NCBI GenBank assembly: GCA_001913845.2 | Contig: MKGP02000003.1 | Coordinates: 1-64,000 of the forward strand | Length of the DNA: 64,000 nt | DNA from: Limnothrix sp. CACIAM 69d | GTDB taxonomy: Bacteria > Cyanobacteriota > Cyanobacteriia > CACIAM-69d | Direction of reading: 5' to 3' | In this document: in pieces, positions 6,158 to 23,001 of the stretch | Layout: the number at the start of each line of letters is the position of its first letter | Numbering within the stretch: the first letter of the stretch is position 1 | Position numbers and translations under genes: made by a program | The notes under the pieces: generated by a model | The model's input: only the letters and a program-made list of their open reading frames with translations | The model's database searches: none | What the model was told of the DNA's origin: nothing

Positions 6158-6284
6158 GAGAATGTCTGAAAAGCCCAAATTGCTACTTTGTGCGCCCCAG
6201 CGATCAGCGTAAACAAGGGGATTAAGCCCCTTCCACGACGATTGGTGCTTGGCCCATGCCAAAAGATACTTTTCAAACATCTTC
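6158..6284. mobile_element. MITE-like element, copy A
   Basis: Starts GAGAATGTCTGAAAAG and ends CTTTTCAAACATCTTC, imperfect inverted copies of the family terminus. The centre carries a degraded form of the CAAGGGG-CCCCTT palindrome. The flanking triplets are TCA (left) and TAA (right); both fit a TNA target but are not identical, so this copy looks old. There is no coding capacity. Its right half, read on the minus strand, closely matches the left half of the copy at 32968. Confidence 0.75.
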
Positions 6285-6445
6285 TAACGGTTGTGGTAAC
6301 AGTTGCGGTTCGATCGTCCCCTCGCAAGGGCAATCGATCAAACCGATCGCACAGATCGATCGCGTAGTTGGTCGCTTCCCAAGCCGTGAGCTATGATGCT
6401 GCCTGAATTTGCGAAAATCGCCGCCCTGGGACGAAACCCTGAACT

Positions 6446-6649
6446 TTGATGCAATCGCCCAACCCAGAAACCTTGAGCATGGTGCTGAAAGTCGCGGTTC
6501 TGTCCGTGGTGCTGTCGGTGGCCATCAAGCTAACGGCCTATGGATCGATCGGCACGCCGCCAGACTGGGTGGCTTGGGTCATGATCCTGTTGCCATCGCT
6601 GATTTTGGCGGGTTGGATGTGGCAGCAAAGCAAACCCGATCGCCCGTAG
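6446..6649 (+). CDS. Small membrane protein, 67 aa
   Basis: I do not recognise a named family. Two hydrophobic segments are visible, about residues 12-30 (MVLKVAVLSVVLSVAIKL) and 40-58 (WVAWVMILLPSLILAGWMW), giving a likely helical hairpin in the membrane with a short positively charged tail. The second ATG at codon 12 is an alternative start. The gene lies 127 bp upstream of the AI-2E family permease on the same strand, so the two may be transcribed together. Confidence 0.55.
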   Translation: MMQSPNPETLSMVLKVAVLSVVLSVAIKLTAYGSIGTPPDWVAWVMILLPSLILAGWMWQQSKPDRP

Positions 6650-6685
6650 ATCGCCCGTAAGTCATCCGTCAATCACCCCAACATC

Positions 6686-6765
6686 CGCCCCGCAAATCAC
6701 CCCGCAAATCACCCCGCAAATCGCCCAGACAGTTGCACAGGAAATTGCACAAGAAATCGCACAGG
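6686..6765 (+). repeat. 12-bp tandem repeats upstream of the permease
   Basis: Two adjacent arrays with 12-bp period: CCCCGCAAATCA (about three copies), then GCACAAGAAATC-like units (about three copies). In the frame of the downstream permease they would read as TPQI then AQEI units, but no ATG, GTG or TTG precedes them in that frame. Confidence 0.65.
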
Positions 6766-6776
6766 ACGCTCGGTTC

Positions 6777-7949
6777 ATGACCCTCGGACGCTGGTTAGGC
6801 TTACTGGTTTTTATTGCGGCCCTGTATGTGCTGTGGGCTGTGCGGCAGTTGGTGCTGATGATTTTTGGCGCGATCGCCATTGCCGTCGCGATCGACCGGT
6901 TGGCCCGCGCCCTGCTCACCCTTCAGTTTCGGGGGCGAAACTTGCTCCAGGATCGAACAAAGGCAATTTTTGGGGCGATCGGGCTGTTGGTGGCTTTTTT
7001 CTTGGGGGCCATGTTGTTGGTTGTGCCCCCCTTTGCAGCTCAATTTCGGGAGCTGACCGAGTTGGTTCCCGTGGCGCTCGATCGCCTCGATGCCTGGTTC
7101 AGCAACTTTTCCCAACAACCCTTGGGCCAGTGGTTACAAACGGTTCTCCCCAACCCCGACTTCCGCAGTTTGCTCACCCAGGCCCAACCGGCCATTAATC
7201 CGCTCTTTCGGGGCGGGTTTGCCCTGTTTGCCAGCACCCTGGGTGGGTTCTTCAACCTGCTGTTGGTGACCATCTTGGCCCTGATGATGCTGTTCGATCC
7301 ATTGCCCTATCGCAATGCCTTCGTGCAGCTCTTTCCCTCCTTCTATCGACGGCGGGCGATCACAATTCTCGATCGCTGCCGCAATTCTCTTGATGCTTGG
7401 CTGCTGGGCATTTTGCTGAACATGTCGATCATTGGTGTCCTCAGCGGCACGGGGCTGGCCTTGATGGGGGTGAAGCTGGCCCTGGCCCACGGGGTTTTGG
7501 CAGGCTTACTGACGTTCATTCCCAATGTGGGGCCGGTGTTGAGTGTGTTGCCGCCAATGTTGGTGGCGCTGTTGGATGATCCGCTCAAGTCCCTGTTGGT
7601 GCTGGGTTGGTACGTGATTGTGCAGCAGTTGGAAACCAATTTGCTCACGCCGATGGTGATGTCCAAGCAGGTGTCCCTGCTACCGGCCGTGACGCTGATT
7701 GCCCAAATCTTTTTTGCGACCTTTTTTGGGTTCACGGGGCTGGTGTTGGCGTTGCCGCTAACCGTGGTGGCTCAAGTTTGGTTCCAGGCGGTGTTGGTTG
7801 AGGATGTGCTGGACCATTGGGATCAGGGGCCGCGCTGGCTGCGATCGAGCCGAGAAGGGGCGATTAACTCCAACTCAGAACAGGCGTTACCAGCGGCCGT
7901 GGCCGTGGGTGGCGATGATCCTCAGACTCCTGAGCCATCAGACTCCTGA
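6777..7949 (+). CDS. AI-2E family transporter / permease
   Basis: A 390-aa integral membrane protein with the AI-2E transporter pattern: two N-terminal helices (LGLLVFIAALYVLWAV, LMIFGAIAIAVAI), a third (AIFGAIGLLVAFFLGAMLLVV), a central amphipathic region (about 90-150), then five C-terminal helices including the conserved GVLAGLLTFIPNVGPVLSVLPPMLVALL segment. Family members include the E. coli exporter linked to autoinducer-2 and sodium/proton antiporters, so the substrate here is open. The start ATG (MTLGRWLG) fits the family. It follows the small membrane gene in the same direction. Confidence 0.85.
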   Translation: MTLGRWLGLLVFIAALYVLWAVRQLVLMIFGAIAIAVAIDRLARALLTLQFRGRNLLQDRTKAIFGAIGLLVAFFLGAMLLVVPPFAAQFRELTELVPVALDRLDAWFSNFSQQPLGQWLQTVLPNPDFRSLLTQAQPAINPLFRGGFALFASTLGGFFNLLLVTILALMMLFDPLPYRNAFVQLFPSFYRRRAITILDRCRNSLDAWLLGILLNMSIIGVLSGTGLALMGVKLALAHGVLAGLLTFIPNVGPVLSVLPPMLVALLDDPLKSLLVLGWYVIVQQLETNLLTPMVMSKQVSLLPAVTLIAQIFFATFFGFTGLVLALPLTVVAQVWFQAVLVEDVLDHWDQGPRWLRSSREGAINSNSEQALPAAVAVGGDDPQTPEPSDS

Positions 7950-8126
7950 GCCACAGGATTGGCGATCGCGACCCGTGCAGCATCTTGGATTGTTGAGTTG
8001 AATGTTTGATCAAAATAGCCCATCATCCCCCAACGCCGCGAAACCCAGATCGCGCGATGGCAGCCACCCGGCTAAAATGGCAACAACTCACCACTTGCTC
8101 ATGGTTGGGGCAAGTGCTTGCGCTAC

Positions 8127-14614: not shown

Positions 14615-15715
14615 TTAGAACGGCTTAGATCGGTCTGATTGCCAACGAATCAGAGACTGCAAGGCTCCGTGATTACCGAATAAGCTCGATCGCCCCGAAT
14701 TGGCTGGCTCTGAATTGGCTGGCTCTGGGTTGGCTGATTCTGGATTGACTGGCCCATTTCGCCCATCCCGCAGCAACACCACAAAAGAACCGGCCCCCAA
14801 GCCCGCTTGGGGAAACATTCGATAACCAGGAAAAGCGGCATGGGTCGATCGCCAAGGCTCCAGGGCCGGAACGGGTTGCGGCTCCAGGTGGGGAAAGCGA
14901 TCGAGCAGCCATTGGGTGGCCCCTTCGTTTTCCTCGATCGCGTAGGTGCAGGTCATGTAGGCCAGCCAACCGCCGGGAGCCACCAGGGCCGCCGCATTGG
15001 CTAAAATTCGTTTTTGGCGATTGGCATTTTTCCCGATCGTTAGGGGATGAAAACAGCCGGGATTTTTCTCCCCTTTAGCCAACAGGGATTGGCCCGAGCA
15101 GGGCGCATCCACAATCACCAAATCCGCCCAGCCGGGAATTGCCTGGGCCAAGGTTTCCGGGTCGGCACAGGTGGCGATCGCCGGGCCAAGGCCGCAGCGC
15201 TTCAGGTTGCTGACCAACATGCCGATCCGTTTGCCGATCGCCTCATTGGCCACCAGCAGCGACGGTTGCAGCGCCCGCCAGGCAAAGACACTTTTACCCC
15301 CCGGCGCGGCGCAGAGATCCACCAGCCGATCGACCCGATCGGGAATTGCCAGCAGGGCCGAAGCCGCAAACACCGAGGAAAAATCCAGACAATAGAACGC
15401 TCCCGCTTCGTGCAGGGGATGCTTGCCGGGTCGCCGGTTGGCCGGTTGGTCGGCGGTCAGATCCAGGCGATCGACCCAGGCCGGCTGCATCGCCAAAGGA
15501 GGCAGGGCCGCAAAGGGGAACGGATCGGGGCGATCGGTCAGCCACAACAAACAGGGCGCAAACCGCTGGGCTTGGCCAAGGCTCTGGACAAAGGCCGATC
15601 GCTCGATCGTGTCCCCAAACAGGCGATCGGCCAGCTTCAGCAACAGCCGCGACGGCTCCACCGCGATCGGCTCCGCTGCCGCTGGTTTGGTCGATCGTTT
15701 CTTCGACTTGCCCAT
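14615..15715 (-). CDS. RsmB/NOP2-type RNA cytosine-C5 methyltransferase
   Basis: A 366-aa RNA m5C methyltransferase. The SAM site is LVDLCAAPGGKSVFAW near 130. The two cysteines of the mechanism are both present: DAPCSGQ near 201 and MTCTY near 253. A second SAM-site region (PSLLVANEAIGKR) fits the NOL1/NOP2/Sun family, which modifies rRNA or tRNA. The start is the ATG at 15715 (MGKSKKR); an upstream in-frame start would translate the intergenic palindrome. The tail contains an in-frame 15-bp repeat giving ANPEPANSEPANSG. An N-terminal NusB-like domain, present in full RsmB, is missing, so it is closer to RsmF/YebU-type enzymes in layout. Confidence 0.85.
   Translation of the reverse strand: MGKSKKRSTKPAAAEPIAVEPSRLLLKLADRLFGDTIERSAFVQSLGQAQRFAPCLLWLTDRPDPFPFAALPPLAMQPAWVDRLDLTADQPANRRPGKHPLHEAGAFYCLDFSSVFAASALLAIPDRVDRLVDLCAAPGGKSVFAWRALQPSLLVANEAIGKRIGMLVSNLKRCGLGPAIATCADPETLAQAIPGWADLVIVDAPCSGQSLLAKGEKNPGCFHPLTIGKNANRQKRILANAAALVAPGGWLAYMTCTYAIEENEGATQWLLDRFPHLEPQPVPALEPWRSTHAAFPGYRMFPQAGLGAGSFVVLLRDGRNGPVNPESANPEPANSEPANSGRSSLFGNHGALQSLIRWQSDRSKPF
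14698..14757 (-). repeat. 15-bp tandem repeat in methyltransferase tail
   Basis: About four copies of a 15-bp unit (ATTGGCTGGCTCTGA on the + strand), in frame, encoding a PANSE-like repeat near the C-terminus. A multiple-of-three period keeps the frame. Confidence 0.75.
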
Positions 15716-15740
15716 CTCCACTCGCCCCCAACGGTAAGTA

Positions 15741-15764
15741 GACAAGGGGCTTAAGCCCCTTGTC
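15741..15764. repeat. Isolated MITE-centre palindrome
   Basis: A perfect palindrome containing CAAGGGGCTTAAGCCCCTTG, the same sequence as the centre of the MITE family. The terminal repeats are absent here. It sits between the lysyl-tRNA synthetase stop and the downstream methyltransferase start, where it may act as a hairpin in the transcript. Confidence 0.8.
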
Positions 15765-15804
15765 CCACAGGATCGCAACCCAGATTGGTGCGTTTAATTT
15801 GGCC

Positions 15805-17418
15805 CTAAACCGCCGCGCGATTCAGATCCAACACCGCTTGCAGGCGATCGAGCACCAGTTGCCGATCCAGGTAGGACAGCAGCGGCCCCGCCTTCGGCCC
15901 GCGCTCCTTATTCAAGAACGCCAGATAAATCGCCGAGAACGCCACCGGCATTTTCAAATCCAGCTCGCGCGTCGTGGCAAACAGAGCCGTTTGCAAGGTT
16001 TCGCCGTCCCAACTGTCCACCGTTGCCAGGGCCTTCAGCAATGCTTCCACATAGTTAGTTTGTTCCGGTGACAGTTGATTAGCTCGCTCCGGAATCGTAT
16101 CCAGATAAAGCACCAACTTTTCTTCTTCATCGGCGTAGTCATTCAGCCACTTTTGAGCAGCCGAAATCCGTTCGCGAGCAATTTGCCAATCGTAATCACT
16201 CAAAGGTTCAGCCGATCGCGCTGTCACTTCCTTTTCCACATCCAAATGGGGCACTTGCAGCAGCGAAATCGCCGTGCTCAATTCAAAGGGTTGATAGGGC
16301 TGAATTTCCCCATCCAACTGGGCATAAAATAGCGCCATCCAGTCTTCATTCAGTTCCGGTGGATTGCCGCCGTTGGCGATCGTTTCTCGGCGGTATTTGT
16401 CGATCAAATTGTCGTAATCACGGAACACGCGCGTAATGCTTTCGTAGTTGGGCGCGAAGTTAATCGCCGTGCGGGGCGGTGTGCGCAACATCAAAAAGCG
16501 CAACAACTGTGGCGGCAACAAATCGGCAATTTCGCGAGCGCTGGAACCGATGCCCTTGGAAGAACTCATTTTCGTGCCATTGACCAAAATGAATTCGTAG
16601 GGCGAATGGAAGGGCGGTTGCTGACCCAAAACCTTGCGAGAAATGGCGTTGGCCACATCGCGGGAGCCGCCCTTTTGGGAATGGTCTTTACCGGCTAGCT
16701 CGATCGTCACGCCCAGCAATTCCCACTTGGCCACCCATTCCACTTTCCAGGGCAATTTGCCGTTGCCATCGAAGGGCGAAACCCAACCGGAATGGCCGCA
16801 CCCTTGGGTGTAGTCCGTGGCATTGGGATCGCAGGTGTAGAACACTTTGCCATCTTGGTAGTCGGTGACTTGGGTGGTGGCAATTTTGCCGCAATGTTCG
16901 CAAATCACCTGGAAGGGATACCAGTTGCTGGGGCGATCGGCCTTGCTGACTTCTTTATAGGCTTCACGCACCAAATGGGCGTTTTTTAAGAAGCGATCGA
17001 TCGCAGGATTCAACTTACCCGATCGATACAAATCCCGCAGGTAATAAATCTCGGGCCGCACCCCCAAATACTCAAACACCTCCAGAAATTCGCCCATGAA
17101 ATATTTGGCGTAATCACTGGCGCGATCGCCCGGTGCGGTGTCATCGGGCGAGGGCACATTGCAGAGGGGCCAGCCCAAATAGCGCTCAAATTTTTCCCGA
17201 TCGAGGTAACGCGGCACGGTGTCCAGCGCGTCGTAATCATCCACGCCGTAGATGAATTTCACGGGCTTGCCGGCCTGTTTCAGGGCGCGATAGATCGTGT
17301 CGTGAATCACGACTCCCCGCAAGGAGCCAACGTGAACACGCCCCGATGGCGTTTTGGAGTCGTTAACGATCTGTGGACCCTGTGCGTCGGCGGCGATTTT
17401 ATCTGCCCAGAAACTCAT
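15805..17418 (-). CDS. lysK: Lysyl-tRNA synthetase, class I
   Basis: A 537-aa class I LysRS that charges tRNA-Lys. The Rossmann signature HIGH-type motif is TPSGRVHVGSLRG at 23-35 and the KMSKS-type motif is KMSSSKG near 285. A zinc-ribbon insertion has CEHC at about 172-175 and a second C pair further on (TCDPN...GCGHSG). The full C-terminal helical anticodon-binding region is present, so it looks functional. Most cyanobacteria I know use the unrelated class II LysS; whether one exists elsewhere in this genome cannot be seen here. The gene is followed on the same strand by the rRNA methyltransferase, 89 bp away with the palindrome between. Confidence 0.93.
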   Translation of the reverse strand: MSFWADKIAADAQGPQIVNDSKTPSGRVHVGSLRGVVIHDTIYRALKQAGKPVKFIYGVDDYDALDTVPRYLDREKFERYLGWPLCNVPSPDDTAPGDRASDYAKYFMGEFLEVFEYLGVRPEIYYLRDLYRSGKLNPAIDRFLKNAHLVREAYKEVSKADRPSNWYPFQVICEHCGKIATTQVTDYQDGKVFYTCDPNATDYTQGCGHSGWVSPFDGNGKLPWKVEWVAKWELLGVTIELAGKDHSQKGGSRDVANAISRKVLGQQPPFHSPYEFILVNGTKMSSSKGIGSSAREIADLLPPQLLRFLMLRTPPRTAINFAPNYESITRVFRDYDNLIDKYRRETIANGGNPPELNEDWMALFYAQLDGEIQPYQPFELSTAISLLQVPHLDVEKEVTARSAEPLSDYDWQIARERISAAQKWLNDYADEEEKLVLYLDTIPERANQLSPEQTNYVEALLKALATVDSWDGETLQTALFATTRELDLKMPVAFSAIYLAFLNKERGPKAGPLLSYLDRQLVLDRLQAVLDLNRAAV

Positions 17419-17702
17419 GGCGGTGGGGCGGTGATGACGAGGTAATGGTTACAGAAAAAGATGGGTGCAGAATGCCAAGGTTGCAAAATGCCTATTCATT
17501 TTAGGGACTTGGGGCCTTTTACGCGCGATCGCCCCTGAAAGGACACTGAAAACGCTGCATTGCCAAAGACTAATTGAGCGGCTTGGGTCGATCAGGTTGA
17601 TTCAGTTAATCCAGCAATCCAGTCCCTTTCAACGCTTTTCGTCCAATCCGGCCGATCGCCCGTTGGCATAATGAGACCAATTGCCATCTTGAGGACAAGC
17701 CG

Positions 17703-18380
17703 ATGGTTGCCCAAATTCCCCCGATCGAGCCGGGAAAGGTTCAACCCAAGCCGATCAAGTATCCCGACAGTGACGGCCAGCCGATGGCAGACAACACCAA
17801 GCAATTTCACTGGATCCAGACCATTCAAAGCAACCTCGCCGCCATTTTGGGTGACGATCCGCAGGTGTTTGTGGCCGGTGATTTGCTTTGGTATCCCGTG
17901 GAAGGTAGCAACACGATTCGCCAAGCGCCTGATGTGATGGTTGTTTTTGGGGTTCCCAAGGGCGATCGCGGTTCCTACATGCAGTGGCGCGAAAACAACA
18001 TCGCCCCTCAAGTGGTGTTTGAAATTTGGTCGCCGGGCAATCGTTTTGGAGAAATGCTGAAAAAGCAGATGTTTTATAACCGCTATGGCGTTGAGGAATA
18101 TTACATCTATGACCCCGATCGCAATGAATTAAACATTTTGACGCGGGGAGCCAGTGGCGATCTAGAACCCGTGGAGGATCCCCAAAATTGGGTCAGTCCT
18201 CGGCTGGGCATCCGCTGCCAACTGGATGAGGAAACTCTCACCTTGTTTGGGCCCGATGGTCAGCCCTTTTCCACCTTGCGGGAAGAACGACAACGGGCCG
18301 ATCGGGAACGGGAACGGGCCGATCGACTGGCGGCCCGGCTACGGGAGCTGGGTTTGGATCCCGACGCGATCGACCCCTAG
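17703..18380 (+). CDS. Uma2 family (DUF820) endonuclease-like protein
   Basis: A 225-aa PD-(D/E)xK-fold protein. The core shows APDVMVVFG with D77, then VVFEIWSPGN with E107, then the family block KKQMFYNRYGVEEYYIYDP. A basic/acidic helix with repeated R-E-R-A-D units closes the protein (ADRERERADRLAARL), as is common in this family. Uma2 genes are amplified in cyanobacterial genomes; a nuclease role is inferred from fold and the biological target is unknown. It is divergent from lysK, with 284 bp between starts. Confidence 0.9.
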   Translation: MVAQIPPIEPGKVQPKPIKYPDSDGQPMADNTKQFHWIQTIQSNLAAILGDDPQVFVAGDLLWYPVEGSNTIRQAPDVMVVFGVPKGDRGSYMQWRENNIAPQVVFEIWSPGNRFGEMLKKQMFYNRYGVEEYYIYDPDRNELNILTRGASGDLEPVEDPQNWVSPRLGIRCQLDEETLTLFGPDGQPFSTLREERQRADRERERADRLAARLRELGLDPDAIDP

Positions 18381-18451
18381 GGCCCTGAGCTACCAGCCCG
18401 AATGACCACCATCAGCACTCGCAGCCATCGGGATTGTGGTCAATGTCAACC

Positions 18452-19783
18452 CTACAACAACCCAGAAACCTCGTAGAGCTGGCGGGTGCGGGACAAAATC
18501 TTATCGCCATAGTTCATATCCGCCTCCCAACGCCCACTCAGCAGCGCCACCGTGGGAGCCACGCCGCGCGGCACAAAGCTAAACCGAGGATCCACCACCG
18601 CATTGGCCAAAGGCTCCGTGCTGGCGTAGGCCTTGAGGTGTTGGATGTGGGCCCGCACCCCCAGCCGCGCACTGGCAAAGGAAGCCCCCTCGGGATTGCC
18701 GCCCAAGGCCCCCAACCCTCCAAAGTTGTTTTGGCTGGATTTGGTGGGGCCCGGAAATTGCAGAAAGTCTGTTTCCACGCACATTTGGGCAAAGGCTAGA
18801 TCAAAATTGACACCCTCGGCGATCGCCTCTTCGCGGTAAAGACGCGGTAAATCGGGAAATTGGTTACCCGCATTGGGGTTAAAGGCCCTCAGAAAGGTCA
18901 GCATTTGGGAATCAACGGTGCTGCCCAGTCCCATGATCTGCCCCTTCAAGGTGTTGGAAACCAGAAGGTTGGTGCGGAGGGTGACGGCGCGGGTTTGGCT
19001 GTTCCAGCCTACGGAGATGTTGTACTGCCGCAGGTCGATCGCCTTGAAATAAACGATGTTTTGGTAGCGCACCCGGACGATTTGCGGGTTGGTGGCCACC
19101 TTGATACCCAGGCGATCGGCCAGGTCGATCGGGATGTAGGAATTGCCATTGATCAGCACGCCCCGCTCGGGATAGCGCTGATTATTCACCTCAATTTGAA
19201 TGCTGCTGTAGGGCTGGGCGGGGAATTCCAGCAAAATTTGTTGCAGGCCATCGCTGAGGCCGGTGGCAATGCCCCAACCTTGATTTCTGAGAATGGTGCG
19301 ATCGGTCTCGTTGGTTAAAAAGCCCACTTCCACCAACAGCGAAGGAACCGTCAGTTGACGACAGAACAGCCGATTTCCCAACCCCGTGGCCGTGTCGGGC
19401 AATGCCCCCCGCGAAAGGAGTTGGGGTACCCGCGCCAGGGTCGATCGCAACAGAATTTCTGCCTGGGTTTGGCGTACCTGATTATTCGCAATGAAATAGA
19501 CCGTCGTGCCTCGGGTGGCGGGGTTGCTGGAACCATCCAAGTGAATTTCCAAGGCCACATCCCCGGTGCGCCCTCGGGCATTGATCCAAGCGATCGTCTG
19601 TTGCAGGCTCAAGTCATCGGGAACCGTCAGCACTTCAATGCCCTGTCGTTGCAGGGTTTGGGCTGTGGCTTCCCGCAGCCAAATCATTTCCCGGGCTTCG
19701 GTGGTTCCGGCCGCCATAATGCCAGGATCCAAAACCCCGTTTTCATAGCCCCCATGGCCCGCTGAAAGGAGAACCCGCCCCAT
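18452..19783 (-). CDS. N-acetylmuramoyl-L-alanine amidase with glucosaminidase domain
   Basis: A 443-aa cell-wall hydrolase with two catalytic parts. Residues 1-190 are an Amidase_3 zinc domain: SAGHGG at 7-12, EIHLDGSS near 80 and the glutamate in LLVEVGFLTN near 140. A copper-amine-oxidase-type substrate-like domain follows (about 200-285; VNNQRYPERGVLINGNSYIP). The C-terminal part resembles a glucosaminidase domain (FDLAFAQMCVETDFLQF, NNFGGLGALGG). No signal peptide is present and an in-frame TAA directly precedes the ATG, so export must use another route or the enzyme is released by lysis. It lies divergently upstream of minCDE. Confidence 0.88.
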   Translation of the reverse strand: MGRVLLSAGHGGYENGVLDPGIMAAGTTEAREMIWLREATAQTLQRQGIEVLTVPDDLSLQQTIAWINARGRTGDVALEIHLDGSSNPATRGTTVYFIANNQVRQTQAEILLRSTLARVPQLLSRGALPDTATGLGNRLFCRQLTVPSLLVEVGFLTNETDRTILRNQGWGIATGLSDGLQQILLEFPAQPYSSIQIEVNNQRYPERGVLINGNSYIPIDLADRLGIKVATNPQIVRVRYQNIVYFKAIDLRQYNISVGWNSQTRAVTLRTNLLVSNTLKGQIMGLGSTVDSQMLTFLRAFNPNAGNQFPDLPRLYREEAIAEGVNFDLAFAQMCVETDFLQFPGPTKSSQNNFGGLGALGGNPEGASFASARLGVRAHIQHLKAYASTEPLANAVVDPRFSFVPRGVAPTVALLSGRWEADMNYGDKILSRTRQLYEVSGLL

Positions 19784-20034
19784 GAATTACTCTCGATCGA
19801 ACTTCGACCAATGCTAAATCACCCGATTCCCAAAAATCACTAGGAGCGTTGTTGTTCAGAATCCTTCCGCACGATTCCGAGGTCGATCAAGCGGTTGATT
19901 GGCCAACCGAGTTGGAATTTCCCACCCTTGATCTGGTCGAAATTCACCGTTTTGGAGCCACAAGCAACGGAGCTGGCGGCCGTCCGGTACACTGCATAGA
20001 TCCGTTGTCGGGTTGATCGCCCGGATTGCTGATC

Positions 20035-21381
20035 ATGGTTGAAGCTGCTGCATTTTCTGAGCACCCAAATCCTGAAGATTTAGAAAACTTAGAAAATTTA
20101 CAAAATCTAGAAACCCTTGAACAAGAAAAATTTGCAGCATTAGAAGACTTACCAGAGCCGGAGGAATTGCCCGATCGGCCGGTGGCCAACGGCGATGACT
20201 TGCCCGATGATTTGGTGTCGGCCTTGGCGATGCCCTTGCGGGGAGCCAAATTGCCCTCCACATCCGCAACCACCCAGCAGCCGGCCGAACAGCCTTCAAC
20301 TGTGCATGACCCGGCTGAATCGCCCACCGAACCCAGCTCGGAAACCGGCAACAAAGTTCCTGTGGCCGAGTTGCCACCCCTGTCGCCAGAAGCGGCCAAG
20401 CTGGCGCGAGAATTACTGACGGGAGCCGATCGCCCCGTGGCGGATCTGACCGGGGAACGGGGGCCCCAAGTGCGCCTCTGGATTCCGGACTGGGCTGAAC
20501 CTCCAAAGACGGAACCGGCAACAGGTTGGGAATTTCAGCCAGAATCGCAAGCTGCGGTCTCTGAGCCTGTCGAGAGCAACACCACTTCCACCGCAAACCC
20601 CTCTGAGGTCAACCCCCCCGAGGCCAAAGCAACCGACACAACGGAGAGCGCCGATCGAACCCAGCCGGTGCGCCTGGTGTTGCCGCCGGACTTTGTGGCC
20701 GAACAGCCCGATCGGGGCTTGGCCTGGACAGATTTGTGGCAACAACTGATGCATCGGCTCTATGGGGGAGAGCGGGGCTGGGCACCCGACGGGCCCGTTA
20801 CGCTGCAAGTGATCGATCGGGCCTTGGAAGCCAGGCAACTGAAGGCGATCGCCGATGCCCTTCAGGAAGTGCAACTGCGGCTGACCCGGGTGGAAACCAA
20901 CCATCCCGCCACCGCAGCCCTGGCGATCGAAATGGGCTATGCACTGCAGTTCACACCACCCGCACCCACCCAGGAACCGATCGCGGTCGATCCTGACCTC
21001 GACCTTGCGCCCGATTGTTTGTATTTGGACAAAACCTTGCGATCGGGGGCGGAAATTCGTTACCCGGGCACGGTGGTGATTCGCGGCGATGCCAACCCGG
21101 GCAGCGCGATCGCGGCCGGGGGCGACATCCTCGTTTGGGGGCGGCTGTGTGGCGTGGCCCACGCGGGCATTAATGGCAACGAAAGCGCCATCATCATGGC
21201 CCTGAACCTGGCGACCAATCAGGTGCGTATTGCCAGCCGCACGGCCCGGGTTCCCGAGTCCAAGCTCGATGTGCCCTGTCCGGAAGTGGCTTACATTTCC
21301 GGAAAAGGGATCCGAATCTCGCCGGCCGCCGACTTTGCCAAAAATGAAGTGCGATCGCGCCTGGGGGAACCACCCGCCTAA
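20035..21381 (+). CDS. minC: Septum site-determining protein MinC
   Basis: MinC inhibits FtsZ assembly away from mid-cell together with MinD. The C-terminal ~100 residues are the beta-helical MinC dimerisation and MinD-binding domain: DKTLRSGAEIRYPGTVVIRGDANPG and GGDILVWGRLCGVAHAG, ending with RIASRTARVP. The ~240 residues before the middle domain are an acidic, Pro/Glu/Thr-rich extension (repeated LENLE units at the very start), much longer than in E. coli MinC. The ATG at 20035 is preferred over a TTG 9 bp upstream. It is first in a minC-minD-minE series; minD begins 149 bp downstream. Confidence 0.9.
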   Translation: MVEAAAFSEHPNPEDLENLENLQNLETLEQEKFAALEDLPEPEELPDRPVANGDDLPDDLVSALAMPLRGAKLPSTSATTQQPAEQPSTVHDPAESPTEPSSETGNKVPVAELPPLSPEAAKLARELLTGADRPVADLTGERGPQVRLWIPDWAEPPKTEPATGWEFQPESQAAVSEPVESNTTSTANPSEVNPPEAKATDTTESADRTQPVRLVLPPDFVAEQPDRGLAWTDLWQQLMHRLYGGERGWAPDGPVTLQVIDRALEARQLKAIADALQEVQLRLTRVETNHPATAALAIEMGYALQFTPPAPTQEPIAVDPDLDLAPDCLYLDKTLRSGAEIRYPGTVVIRGDANPGSAIAAGGDILVWGRLCGVAHAGINGNESAIIMALNLATNQVRIASRTARVPESKLDVPCPEVAYISGKGIRISPAADFAKNEVRSRLGEPPA

Positions 21382-21529
21382 ACGCTTGCCTCACCCCCCG
21401 ATCGCCCCTCGATCGCCATGCTAAATTGAGGTGTCTTTTCGGGTTCCGCCCGATCGCACCGCCCTTGGCTGTTCTGAATCCACCCTTCTCGATCGACCCT
21501 TCAGCCGTTGTCAACTATCAGGCAATCCC

Positions 21530-22339
21530 ATGAGCCGCATCATCGTAATCACCTCCGGCAAAGGTGGCGTAGGCAAAACCACCTGCACCGCCAACTTGGG
21601 CATGGCCCTGGCGCAACTGGGGCGAAAAGTGGCGCTAGTGGATGCCGACTTTGGCCTGCGTAACCTAGACCTGTTGTTGGGTCTGGAAAATCGCGTGGTC
21701 TACACCGCCGTGGAATACCTGGCCGGTGAGTGCCGCCTGGAGCAGGCCCTCGTGCGCGACAAACGACAGCCCCGATTGGTGCTGATGCCCGCCGCCCAAA
21801 ACCGCACCAAAGAATCGGTCACCCCCGACCAAATGAAAGCGTTGGTTTTGACCCTGGCCAAAAGCTTTGACTATGTGTTGGTGGACTGTCCGGCGGGCAT
21901 TGAAATGGGCTTCCGCAACGCGATCGCCGCCGCCCGCGAAGCGATCATCGTCACCACCCCCGAAATTGCCGCCGTGCGCGATGCCGATCGGGTGGTGGGC
22001 CTGTTGGAAGCCGAGGGCATCAAAAACGTTCGGTTGGTGGTGAACCGGCTGCGGCCGCAAATGGTGCAAGCCAACGACATGATGTCCGTGGACGATGTGC
22101 GCGAAATTTTGGCGATTCCGTTGGTGGGGATTTTGCCCGACGATGAACGGGTGATCACCTCCACCAACCGGGGGGAACCGCTGGTGCTGTCGGAGCAAGT
22201 CTCCGTGCCCAAGATGGCGTTTAGTAACATTGCGCGCCGTCTGGAGGGTCAAAACGTGGAATTTTTAGATCTCACCGCCAGCCACGATTCCTTGCTGAAG
22301 CGGCTGAAGCGCTGGCTGAAGGGTAGCCCTCGCGGTTAG
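21530..22339 (+). CDS. minD: Septum site-determining ATPase MinD
   Basis: A 269-aa ParA/MinD-type ATPase that cycles on the membrane and recruits MinC. It has the deviant Walker A SGKGGVGKTT at 9-18, switch I/II regions LVDADFGLRNLDLLLG and LVDCPAGIEMGF, and a C-terminal amphipathic helix (LKRLKRWLKGS) acting as membrane-targeting sequence. The start is the ATG giving MSRIIVITSGKGG; an in-frame TTG/GTG further upstream would add a non-conserved leader. It is followed by minE with a 263-bp gap. Confidence 0.97.
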   Translation: MSRIIVITSGKGGVGKTTCTANLGMALAQLGRKVALVDADFGLRNLDLLLGLENRVVYTAVEYLAGECRLEQALVRDKRQPRLVLMPAAQNRTKESVTPDQMKALVLTLAKSFDYVLVDCPAGIEMGFRNAIAAAREAIIVTTPEIAAVRDADRVVGLLEAEGIKNVRLVVNRLRPQMVQANDMMSVDDVREILAIPLVGILPDDERVITSTNRGEPLVLSEQVSVPKMAFSNIARRLEGQNVEFLDLTASHDSLLKRLKRWLKGSPRG

Positions 22340-22602
22340 CCTGGATGGGCGAGCCGCTCCCGATCGGCCGCTGGAAGCTTCCCTGACCGCTGGCTCAGTC
22401 TTGACCAAGCTGGTCTCATCCATTGGGTGGTGTGTCTTGACTGCAAGGGCTGTTGCGATCGCCCGGGGCCCATGACCGGCACAAAACCAATCAACGCCAA
22501 TCAACCGGGCGGTTTTGGCTCCGTTGGCAACCAGCCCTCAACCCACAACTCGTTTTTTCCCTCAGATCGCCCTTCGATCCAGCGCGCTGCGTTATCTGCG
22601 TC

Positions 22603-23001
22603 ATGTTAAGCGAACTTCTCGATAAACTTTTTGCCCGCGATCCCGACAGCCGCAGCGTGGTGAAACAGCGGTTGCAATTGCTGTTAGCCCATGACCGAAC
22701 TGATCTTTCGCCGCAGTCGCTCGATCGAATGCGCCAAGAGATTTTGGATGTAATTTCTCGCTATGTGGAAATTGATAGCGAGGGATTGCAATTCATGCTG
22801 GAAAACGACCTTCGCACCACGGCGTTGATTGCCAATGTGCCCATTCGGCGGGTGCGCCCGGACAATGACCCCTCGGAGGAAGCGGCCGCAGCCATGGAAA
22901 CCCCGATCGAGCGTGTGATCTCGGAAGCCCCTTCCGAAACGGACGAAATCATCGATTTGGAATCCTTGCCCCTTGATGGGCCCACGGAAATTACCCCCTA
23001 G
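22603..23001 (+). CDS. minE: Cell division topological specificity factor MinE
   Basis: A 132-aa MinE that stimulates MinD ATPase and drives Min oscillation. The core is typical: an N-terminal helix ([11 protein letters not shown]), the anti-MinCD segment [19 protein letters not shown], and the topological domain [22 protein letters not shown]. The tail from about 85 on is an acidic extension as seen in other cyanobacterial MinE proteins. Some upstream in-frame codons are open but unconserved, so the ATG at 22603 is taken. Its 3' end overlaps the preferred start of the aldolase gene. Confidence 0.95.

Follow-up and report, generated by a model that had tools for sequence, protein, structure and literature searches.

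Class I lysyl-tRNA synthetase as the only lysyl-tRNA synthetase found in Limnothrix sp. CACIAM 69d and as a probable alternative to the class II enzyme in Cyanobacteriia

The first 64,000 nucleotides of contig MKGP02000003.1 from the cyanobacterium Limnothrix sp. CACIAM 69d (assembly GCA_001913845.2, forward strand; hereafter the window) carry a lysK-type gene for a class I lysyl-tRNA synthetase (LysRS), and this gene is the only LysRS gene that we found in the genome. The explanation that we favor, with a probability of roughly 0.87, is that class I and class II LysRS are alternatives in Cyanobacteriia and that the window gene encodes the housekeeping LysRS. In this scheme, the window enzyme would use a class I active site to activate lysine with ATP and would charge the standard tRNA-Lys(UUU); a class I gene would arrive at a new chromosomal site, the class II gene would be lost afterwards, and the tRNA would stay unchanged, being without the G2-U71 pair that, by work on Borrelia, ties a tRNA to class I.

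The gene is a minus-strand open reading frame with an ATG start that encodes 537 amino acids. An earlier note, made from the sequence alone, had given its coordinates exactly and had called it a class I LysRS from three hallmarks (PSGRVHVGS, KMSSSKG and a zinc ribbon), an assignment borne out by the motifs, by the Pfam and NCBIfam models and by a solved structure. The features are as follows.

15805 to 17418 (stop codon included), minus strand: lysK-type gene for class I lysyl-tRNA synthetase, 537 amino acids, from the open reading frame, Pfam, NCBIfam and the structure match.
17323 to 17349, minus strand: HIGH-type signature PSGRVHVGS, residues 24-32, in the class I catalytic domain, from the sequence.
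16798 to 16902, minus strand: zinc-ribbon-like segment C173-x2-C176 ... C196 ... C207, a putative zinc site, from the sequence.
16552 to 16572, minus strand: KMSKS-type signature KMSSSKG, residues 283-289, invariant in 18 relatives.
15832 to 16080, minus strand: C-terminal anticodon-binding domain PF19269 (Anticodon_2), residues 447-529, above the Pfam cut-off.

In the alignment with these 18 cyanobacterial relatives, residues 24-29, 31 and 32 of the first signature and all four cysteines (173, 176, 196 and 207) are also invariant. The window protein scored 298.6 bits against PF01921 (cut-off 27) and 320 bits against the NCBIfam equivalog TIGR00467 'lysine--tRNA ligase' (cut-off 147.55), its residues 3-527 spanning positions 2-512 of the 515 in the profile, and TIGR00467 was matched by 18/18 members of the alignment. 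The sole strong match among solved structures was the class I LysRS of Pyrococcus horikoshii, 1irx (E 3.7e-58, residues 4-527), the second best being CysRS at E 4e-4. Against the alphaproteobacterial-type model NF001968 the protein reached 121.4 bits, below the 648-bit cut-off. These comparisons confirm a complete class I LysRS over the whole length. Because the naming model, TIGR00467, scores far above its cut-off, 'lysine--tRNA ligase' is very likely the label that such genes receive in automatic annotation.

Examination of the rest of the genome (G000; 4.57 Mb in 100 contigs, 99.99% complete) gave one class I match and no class II LysRS. The highest score for class II was 120.8 bits, short of the model's cut-off of 427.6, and the gene concerned is an AspRS (aspartate--tRNA ligase; NF001750, 858 bits). 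Since the genome holds one class I gene only and its class II-like match is AspRS, class I replaces class II here and does not coexist with it. The earlier note had offered replacement and coexistence with divided roles as alternatives, to be checked by a search for class II lysS elsewhere in the genome; replacement was supported, and coexistence was rejected, no class II gene being found beside class I, at the thresholds used, in this genome, in 39 relatives or in the samples of the phylum and the class. Because the window enzyme is the only LysRS found in its genome, it very likely lysylates tRNA-Lys, a prediction from family membership and sole-LysRS status, and the gene would be essential.

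The same exclusion holds across the samples. Nine of the 39 relatives had class I and 30 had class II over the cut-off, with none having both or neither. In 386 genomes of the phylum, for which the class I and class II lists were compared by eye, 44 had class I and 340 had class II (all at E<=1e-100, 338 of them also passing the cut-off), none had both and two had neither at the thresholds used; these two, G071 (73% complete) and G086 (9% contaminated), belong to other classes of the phylum, and incompleteness, contamination or a divergent enzyme are candidate causes. Every class I carrier in the phylum sample belongs to the window's own class, and in a sample of 388 Cyanobacteriia genomes class I was present in 69. 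Of 33 further class I genomes from this sample, none had class II at E<=1e-50, and at the thresholds used class II was found in 0 of 81 class I cyanobacterial genomes, including those assembled as a single contig (G026, G058, G081, G209 and G364). The earlier view that most cyanobacteria use class II thus held, class I being a minority at 69/388, a frequency that does not fit class I as an ancestral gene in most cyanobacteria, the outcome that the earlier note had said would remove the novelty.

Nevertheless, class I is far commoner than one odd cyanobacterium: the samples show it in 11 families, so the exchange concerns the whole class and not one genome. Only class I was seen in families f1 (the window's, 6/6 sampled members), f21, f22, f23, f28, f33 and f40, and both kinds occurred across the genomes of four families, f16, f29, f30 and f13. 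The last rests on one fragmented genome (G616, 5% contamination) with the N-terminal part of class I at a contig end, which we did not rely on. Carriers among the 80 best loci, all cyanobacterial, include Dolichospermum, Pseudanabaena, Sphaerospermopsis, Richelia, Laspinema, Roseofilum, Myxacorys, Leptolyngbya and some Microcystis. Two class I proteins of family f23 (L367 and L368, from G523 and G597) are about 30 residues longer than their relatives, with frames of 569-570 amino acids. A membrane-anchor (CAAD) domain considered for the 743-residue frame of G144 was rejected by inspection by eye, as the additional residues lie ahead of the natural ATG and resemble a non-coding frame.

The exchange is still readable in Microcystis, where three of the seven sampled genomes have class I and four have class II. 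In the class II reference G123, the lysS coding sequence occupies 6343-8064 of locus L094. In the class I genome G255 (Microcystis viridis FACHB-1342), the segment equivalent to L094 6232-8108 (lysS coding sequence and spacers) is missing, with both neighbors in place and 159 bp between them; in G257, 6232-8082 is missing and 23 bp are left between 6231 and 8083; and in G375 homology ends at the same 6231, the other side lying on another contig. Position 6231 is a hot spot of small repeats, since the class II genome G125 breaks there too. In G255, lysK and the lysS scar lie on one 161-kb contig about 21 kb apart, so gain and loss occurred at separate places; this arrangement also speaks against contamination of G255. 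At the lysK site in class II G125 (L375) the two flanks are about 245 bp apart, and lysK of G375 lies about 700 bp from its place in G255. We infer that gain preceded loss.

The Microcystis gene is closely related to one from another family. Microcystis lysK is 87.8% identical in DNA to lysK of Myxacorys (family f16), BLAST alignment gave 88.7% identity over 1652 bp with unrelated flanks, and in the tree the Microcystis copies are nested inside f16, whose status as a clade was rejected (p-AU 0.0185). In addition, the ratio of LysRS-I to RpoB distance was 0.51-0.54 for three Microcystis-Myxacorys pairs, with the next lowest value at 1.24. Because these ratios stand far below those of other pairs, one recent between-family transfer is plain and the remaining history, judged by the same distances, appears to be old. 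Arrival by transfer, as the earlier note had suggested for the window gene, is therefore upheld for Microcystis and f16. In the window's family all six sampled members have the gene, so the class I trait is old there; the same route may have served that family.

Several other features of the Microcystis loci were observed. Beside the acquired lysK of G255, L074 8691-10562 holds two paired restriction-modification genes, one for a cytosine-5 methyltransferase (TIGR00675) and one for a BsaWI-like endonuclease (PF18643). Short multi-copy Microcystis repeats border the lysK insertion (L074 7525-7970) and lie near the lysS region (L094 5356-5496). The class II LysRS of Microcystis (L094 6343-8064) has 573 amino acids, about 60 residues beyond the end of its TIGR00499 match at 510, a tail that we take to resemble a KTSC domain.

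The tRNA did not change with the enzyme. For the tRNA and RpoB work, 80 of the 93 genomes first chosen were used, 40 of each class. A pattern search found a tRNA-Lys candidate in 73 of the 80 and a clear tRNA-Lys(UUU) in 35/40 class I genomes (the window's included) and 37/40 class II genomes; these counts omit an aberrant tRNA of G326 (L314), and CUU copies were kept apart (four class I and five class II among those fetched). All 72 clear tRNA-Lys(UUU) have G1-C72, G2-C71, G3-C70 and A73, and none has G2-U71. The tRNA is letter-for-letter identical across the three class I and four class II Microcystis, and again between G309 (class I) and G038 (class II), which belong to one genus. The Borrelia identity set, the only one known for class I LysRS according to the review PMC9976931, has G2-U71 as essential and A73 as marginal, and G2-U71 is reported there to hinder the class II LysRS of Escherichia coli. 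Since G2-C71 is present in 35/35 clear class I cases, the cyanobacterial class I enzyme must, we infer, read tRNA-Lys without G2-U71. The acceptor stem appears to contain nothing that bars either enzyme, and a tRNA without the G2-U71 lock would permit exchange. Near its normal UUU gene with A73, one genome (G176, L209) has another tRNA-Lys-like gene, whose anticodon is CUU and whose base 73 is C.

A deeper history of the class I gene was sought in trees. The 19 cyanobacterial LysRS-I rows group as a single clade (97/98) with a long stem, well separated from the alphaproteobacterial rows, and within this clade most families are single groups. The outgroups were six plasmid-collection records, the gene of halovirus HGTV-1, one contaminant and 1irx, with no spirochaete in the tree; the rows nearest to the cyanobacterial clade, 1irx and HGTV-1, join among long branches in a placement flagged as unsafe. 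Of the groupings that the earlier note had proposed to look for, the alphaproteobacterial one is thus disfavored, archaeal and haloviral rows are nearest through unsafe long branches, and spirochaetes lie outside the sample. No phage relative was found in IMG/VR by the patterns used, and INPHARED gave only the HGTV-1 gene, 26% identical; the plasmid-collection records were only 25-28% identical, indicating no close plasmid carrier. The window and two loci of the same family (L084 and L085) share no neighbor except lysK, which was not counted as evidence of mobility because class II loci of different genera also share few neighbors.

The alternative with most left in its favor is that an early cyanobacterial ancestor had both enzymes and that each lineage lost one, with little transfer needed. 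We consider this unlikely, although it is consistent with the single cyanobacterial clade (97/98) and with class I being the only kind sampled in families f1, f22, f23, f28 and f33. It requires long coexistence on many branches, yet dual carriers number 0/81, and the Microcystis copy clearly came by transfer. When the class I/II label is mapped on an RpoB tree with 40 class I and 39 class II genomes (79 in all; RpoB was not found in G157), it requires 12 changes, at least seven of them forced by well-supported (starred) branches. The LysRS-I data reject the RpoB topology, also when Microcystis is omitted (p-AU 3.5e-6); this conflict amounts to moderate evidence, a one-gene RpoB reference being a weak yardstick.

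Some observations weigh against the exchange of alternatives that we favor. The LysRS-I to RpoB distance ratio has a median of 1.69 (639 cross-family pairs), and the corresponding class II ratio has a median of 1.68 (274 pairs from 25 genomes with both genes); outside Microcystis the two classes are thus alike, which would fit old vertical inheritance equally with old transfers. The lysK genes of f16 (Myxacorys and Leptolyngbya FACHB-321; L081 and L361) have a GC content of 0.43-0.44 in loci of 0.49, and for this reason lysK may have been imported into f16 as well, and a transfer from f16 to Microcystis, as the tree suggests, is uncertain in its direction. No clear tRNA-Lys(UUU) was found in 5/40 class I genomes (no match in G026, G027, G096 and G228; aberrant in G326) or in 3/40 class II genomes, where a changed tRNA is possible. 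Many of the sampled assemblies are drafts, several single-contig class I genomes being exceptions. Finally, enzyme activity is predicted from family membership.

A special role for class I as a second enzyme, as in Bacillus cereus and Methanosarcina, with class II overlooked, is very improbable. Dual carriers do exist in other phyla, according to PMC1475646, PMC2916919 and PMC7373986; in the class I cyanobacterial genomes, single-contig ones included, class II was found in 0/81 at the thresholds used, and in Microcystis it has been physically excised from its known place. Contamination by class I-bearing heterotrophs can be dismissed as a general cause, since the cyanobacterial type is a clade of its own, well apart from the alphaproteobacterial one, is carried on long native contigs as well as in single-contig genomes, and takes the place of class II one for one; the case in its favor is a second class I LysRS of alphaproteobacterial type in G585 (family f23, 6% contamination; L359 1271-2938; NF001968, 848 bits), which is probably on a contaminant contig.

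A bolder extension, which we hold tentatively and at slightly less than even odds, is that the two LysRS are freely interchangeable in cyanobacteria, a single-gene cassette of about 1.7 kb replacing the essential class II gene repeatedly, and lately among Microcystis species, without tRNA change. The class I enzyme would then read G2-C71 by rules other than those of Borrelia, and the swaps would recur perhaps because it resists lysine analogues. Sensitivity to thialysine is much lower in class I LysRS, and Bacillus subtilis with its class II enzyme replaced by class I is reported to have become resistant; the selective reason for the swap is at this stage a hypothesis. Shaul et al. propose that both kinds together may help where the environment holds LysRS inhibitors (PMC1475646), and B. 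subtilis with the B. cereus class I LysRS is reported in PMC2916919 to have a growth defect in rich medium and no propagation in minimal medium.

Elsewhere in the window, a Uma2-family putative restriction endonuclease (17703-18380, plus strand; PF05685, 65 bits) is divergent from lysK. At 20026-22998 (plus strand), consecutive genes match MinC (its C-terminal domain), a MinD/ParA-type ATPase and MinE; after them comes a KDPG/KHG aldolase reading frame, which starts before the MinE frame has ended. ARAGORN found no tRNA genes in the whole window (1-64000). A T-box or lysine riboswitch upstream of lysK was also looked for, and no Rfam family was above its threshold in 15000-19000.

LysRS is, to our knowledge, the only synthetase that occurs in both structural classes, and what makes one class displace the other is a long-standing question. 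Natural class I/class II pairs exist in bloom-forming cyanobacteria, and those of Microcystis, within one genus, with identical tRNA and with insertion and excision scar still readable, make an unusually clean natural experiment. Strains from culture collections make it testable which of the two enzymes prevails with a given analogue or nutrient condition, and how the class I enzyme reads a tRNA without G2-U71. Class II LysRS has habitually been treated as universal in cyanobacteria, a view that the distribution corrects. Among openly licensed PMC papers, judged from search results and excerpts, we found no description of class I LysRS in cyanobacteria; the LysRS2 tree of Shaul et al. includes a group of nine cyanobacteria (PMC1475646).

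The window enzyme resembles known class I LysRS (LysRS1, lysK; TIGR00467, PF01921, 1irx) in its full length, its HIGH- and KMSKS-type signatures, its cysteine ribbon and its anticodon domain. Compared with class I LysRS elsewhere, the cyanobacterial type is a separate clade on a long stem, at 25-28% identity to the non-cyanobacterial copies of the plasmid collection. Class II LysRS (lysS; TIGR00499) has the same reaction and the same tRNA, but is of an unrelated fold and family and is absent from the window genome. Borrelia burgdorferi LysRS1 is likewise a class I LysRS acting on tRNA-Lys, but is reported to need G2-U71 (PMC9976931), whereas the clear cyanobacterial class I cases all have G2-C71. 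Dual systems such as B. cereus and Methanosarcina hold both classes per genome, unlike any of the 81 class I cyanobacterial genomes at the thresholds used. Displacement of one LysRS class by the other is already known as a kind, and the closest likeness is the class II to class I displacement in spirochaetes and alphaproteobacteria described by Shaul et al. (2006), likewise a class replacement by gene transfer (PMC1475646); the exchange here takes place within one bacterial class, even within one genus, and the tRNA keeps G2-C71.
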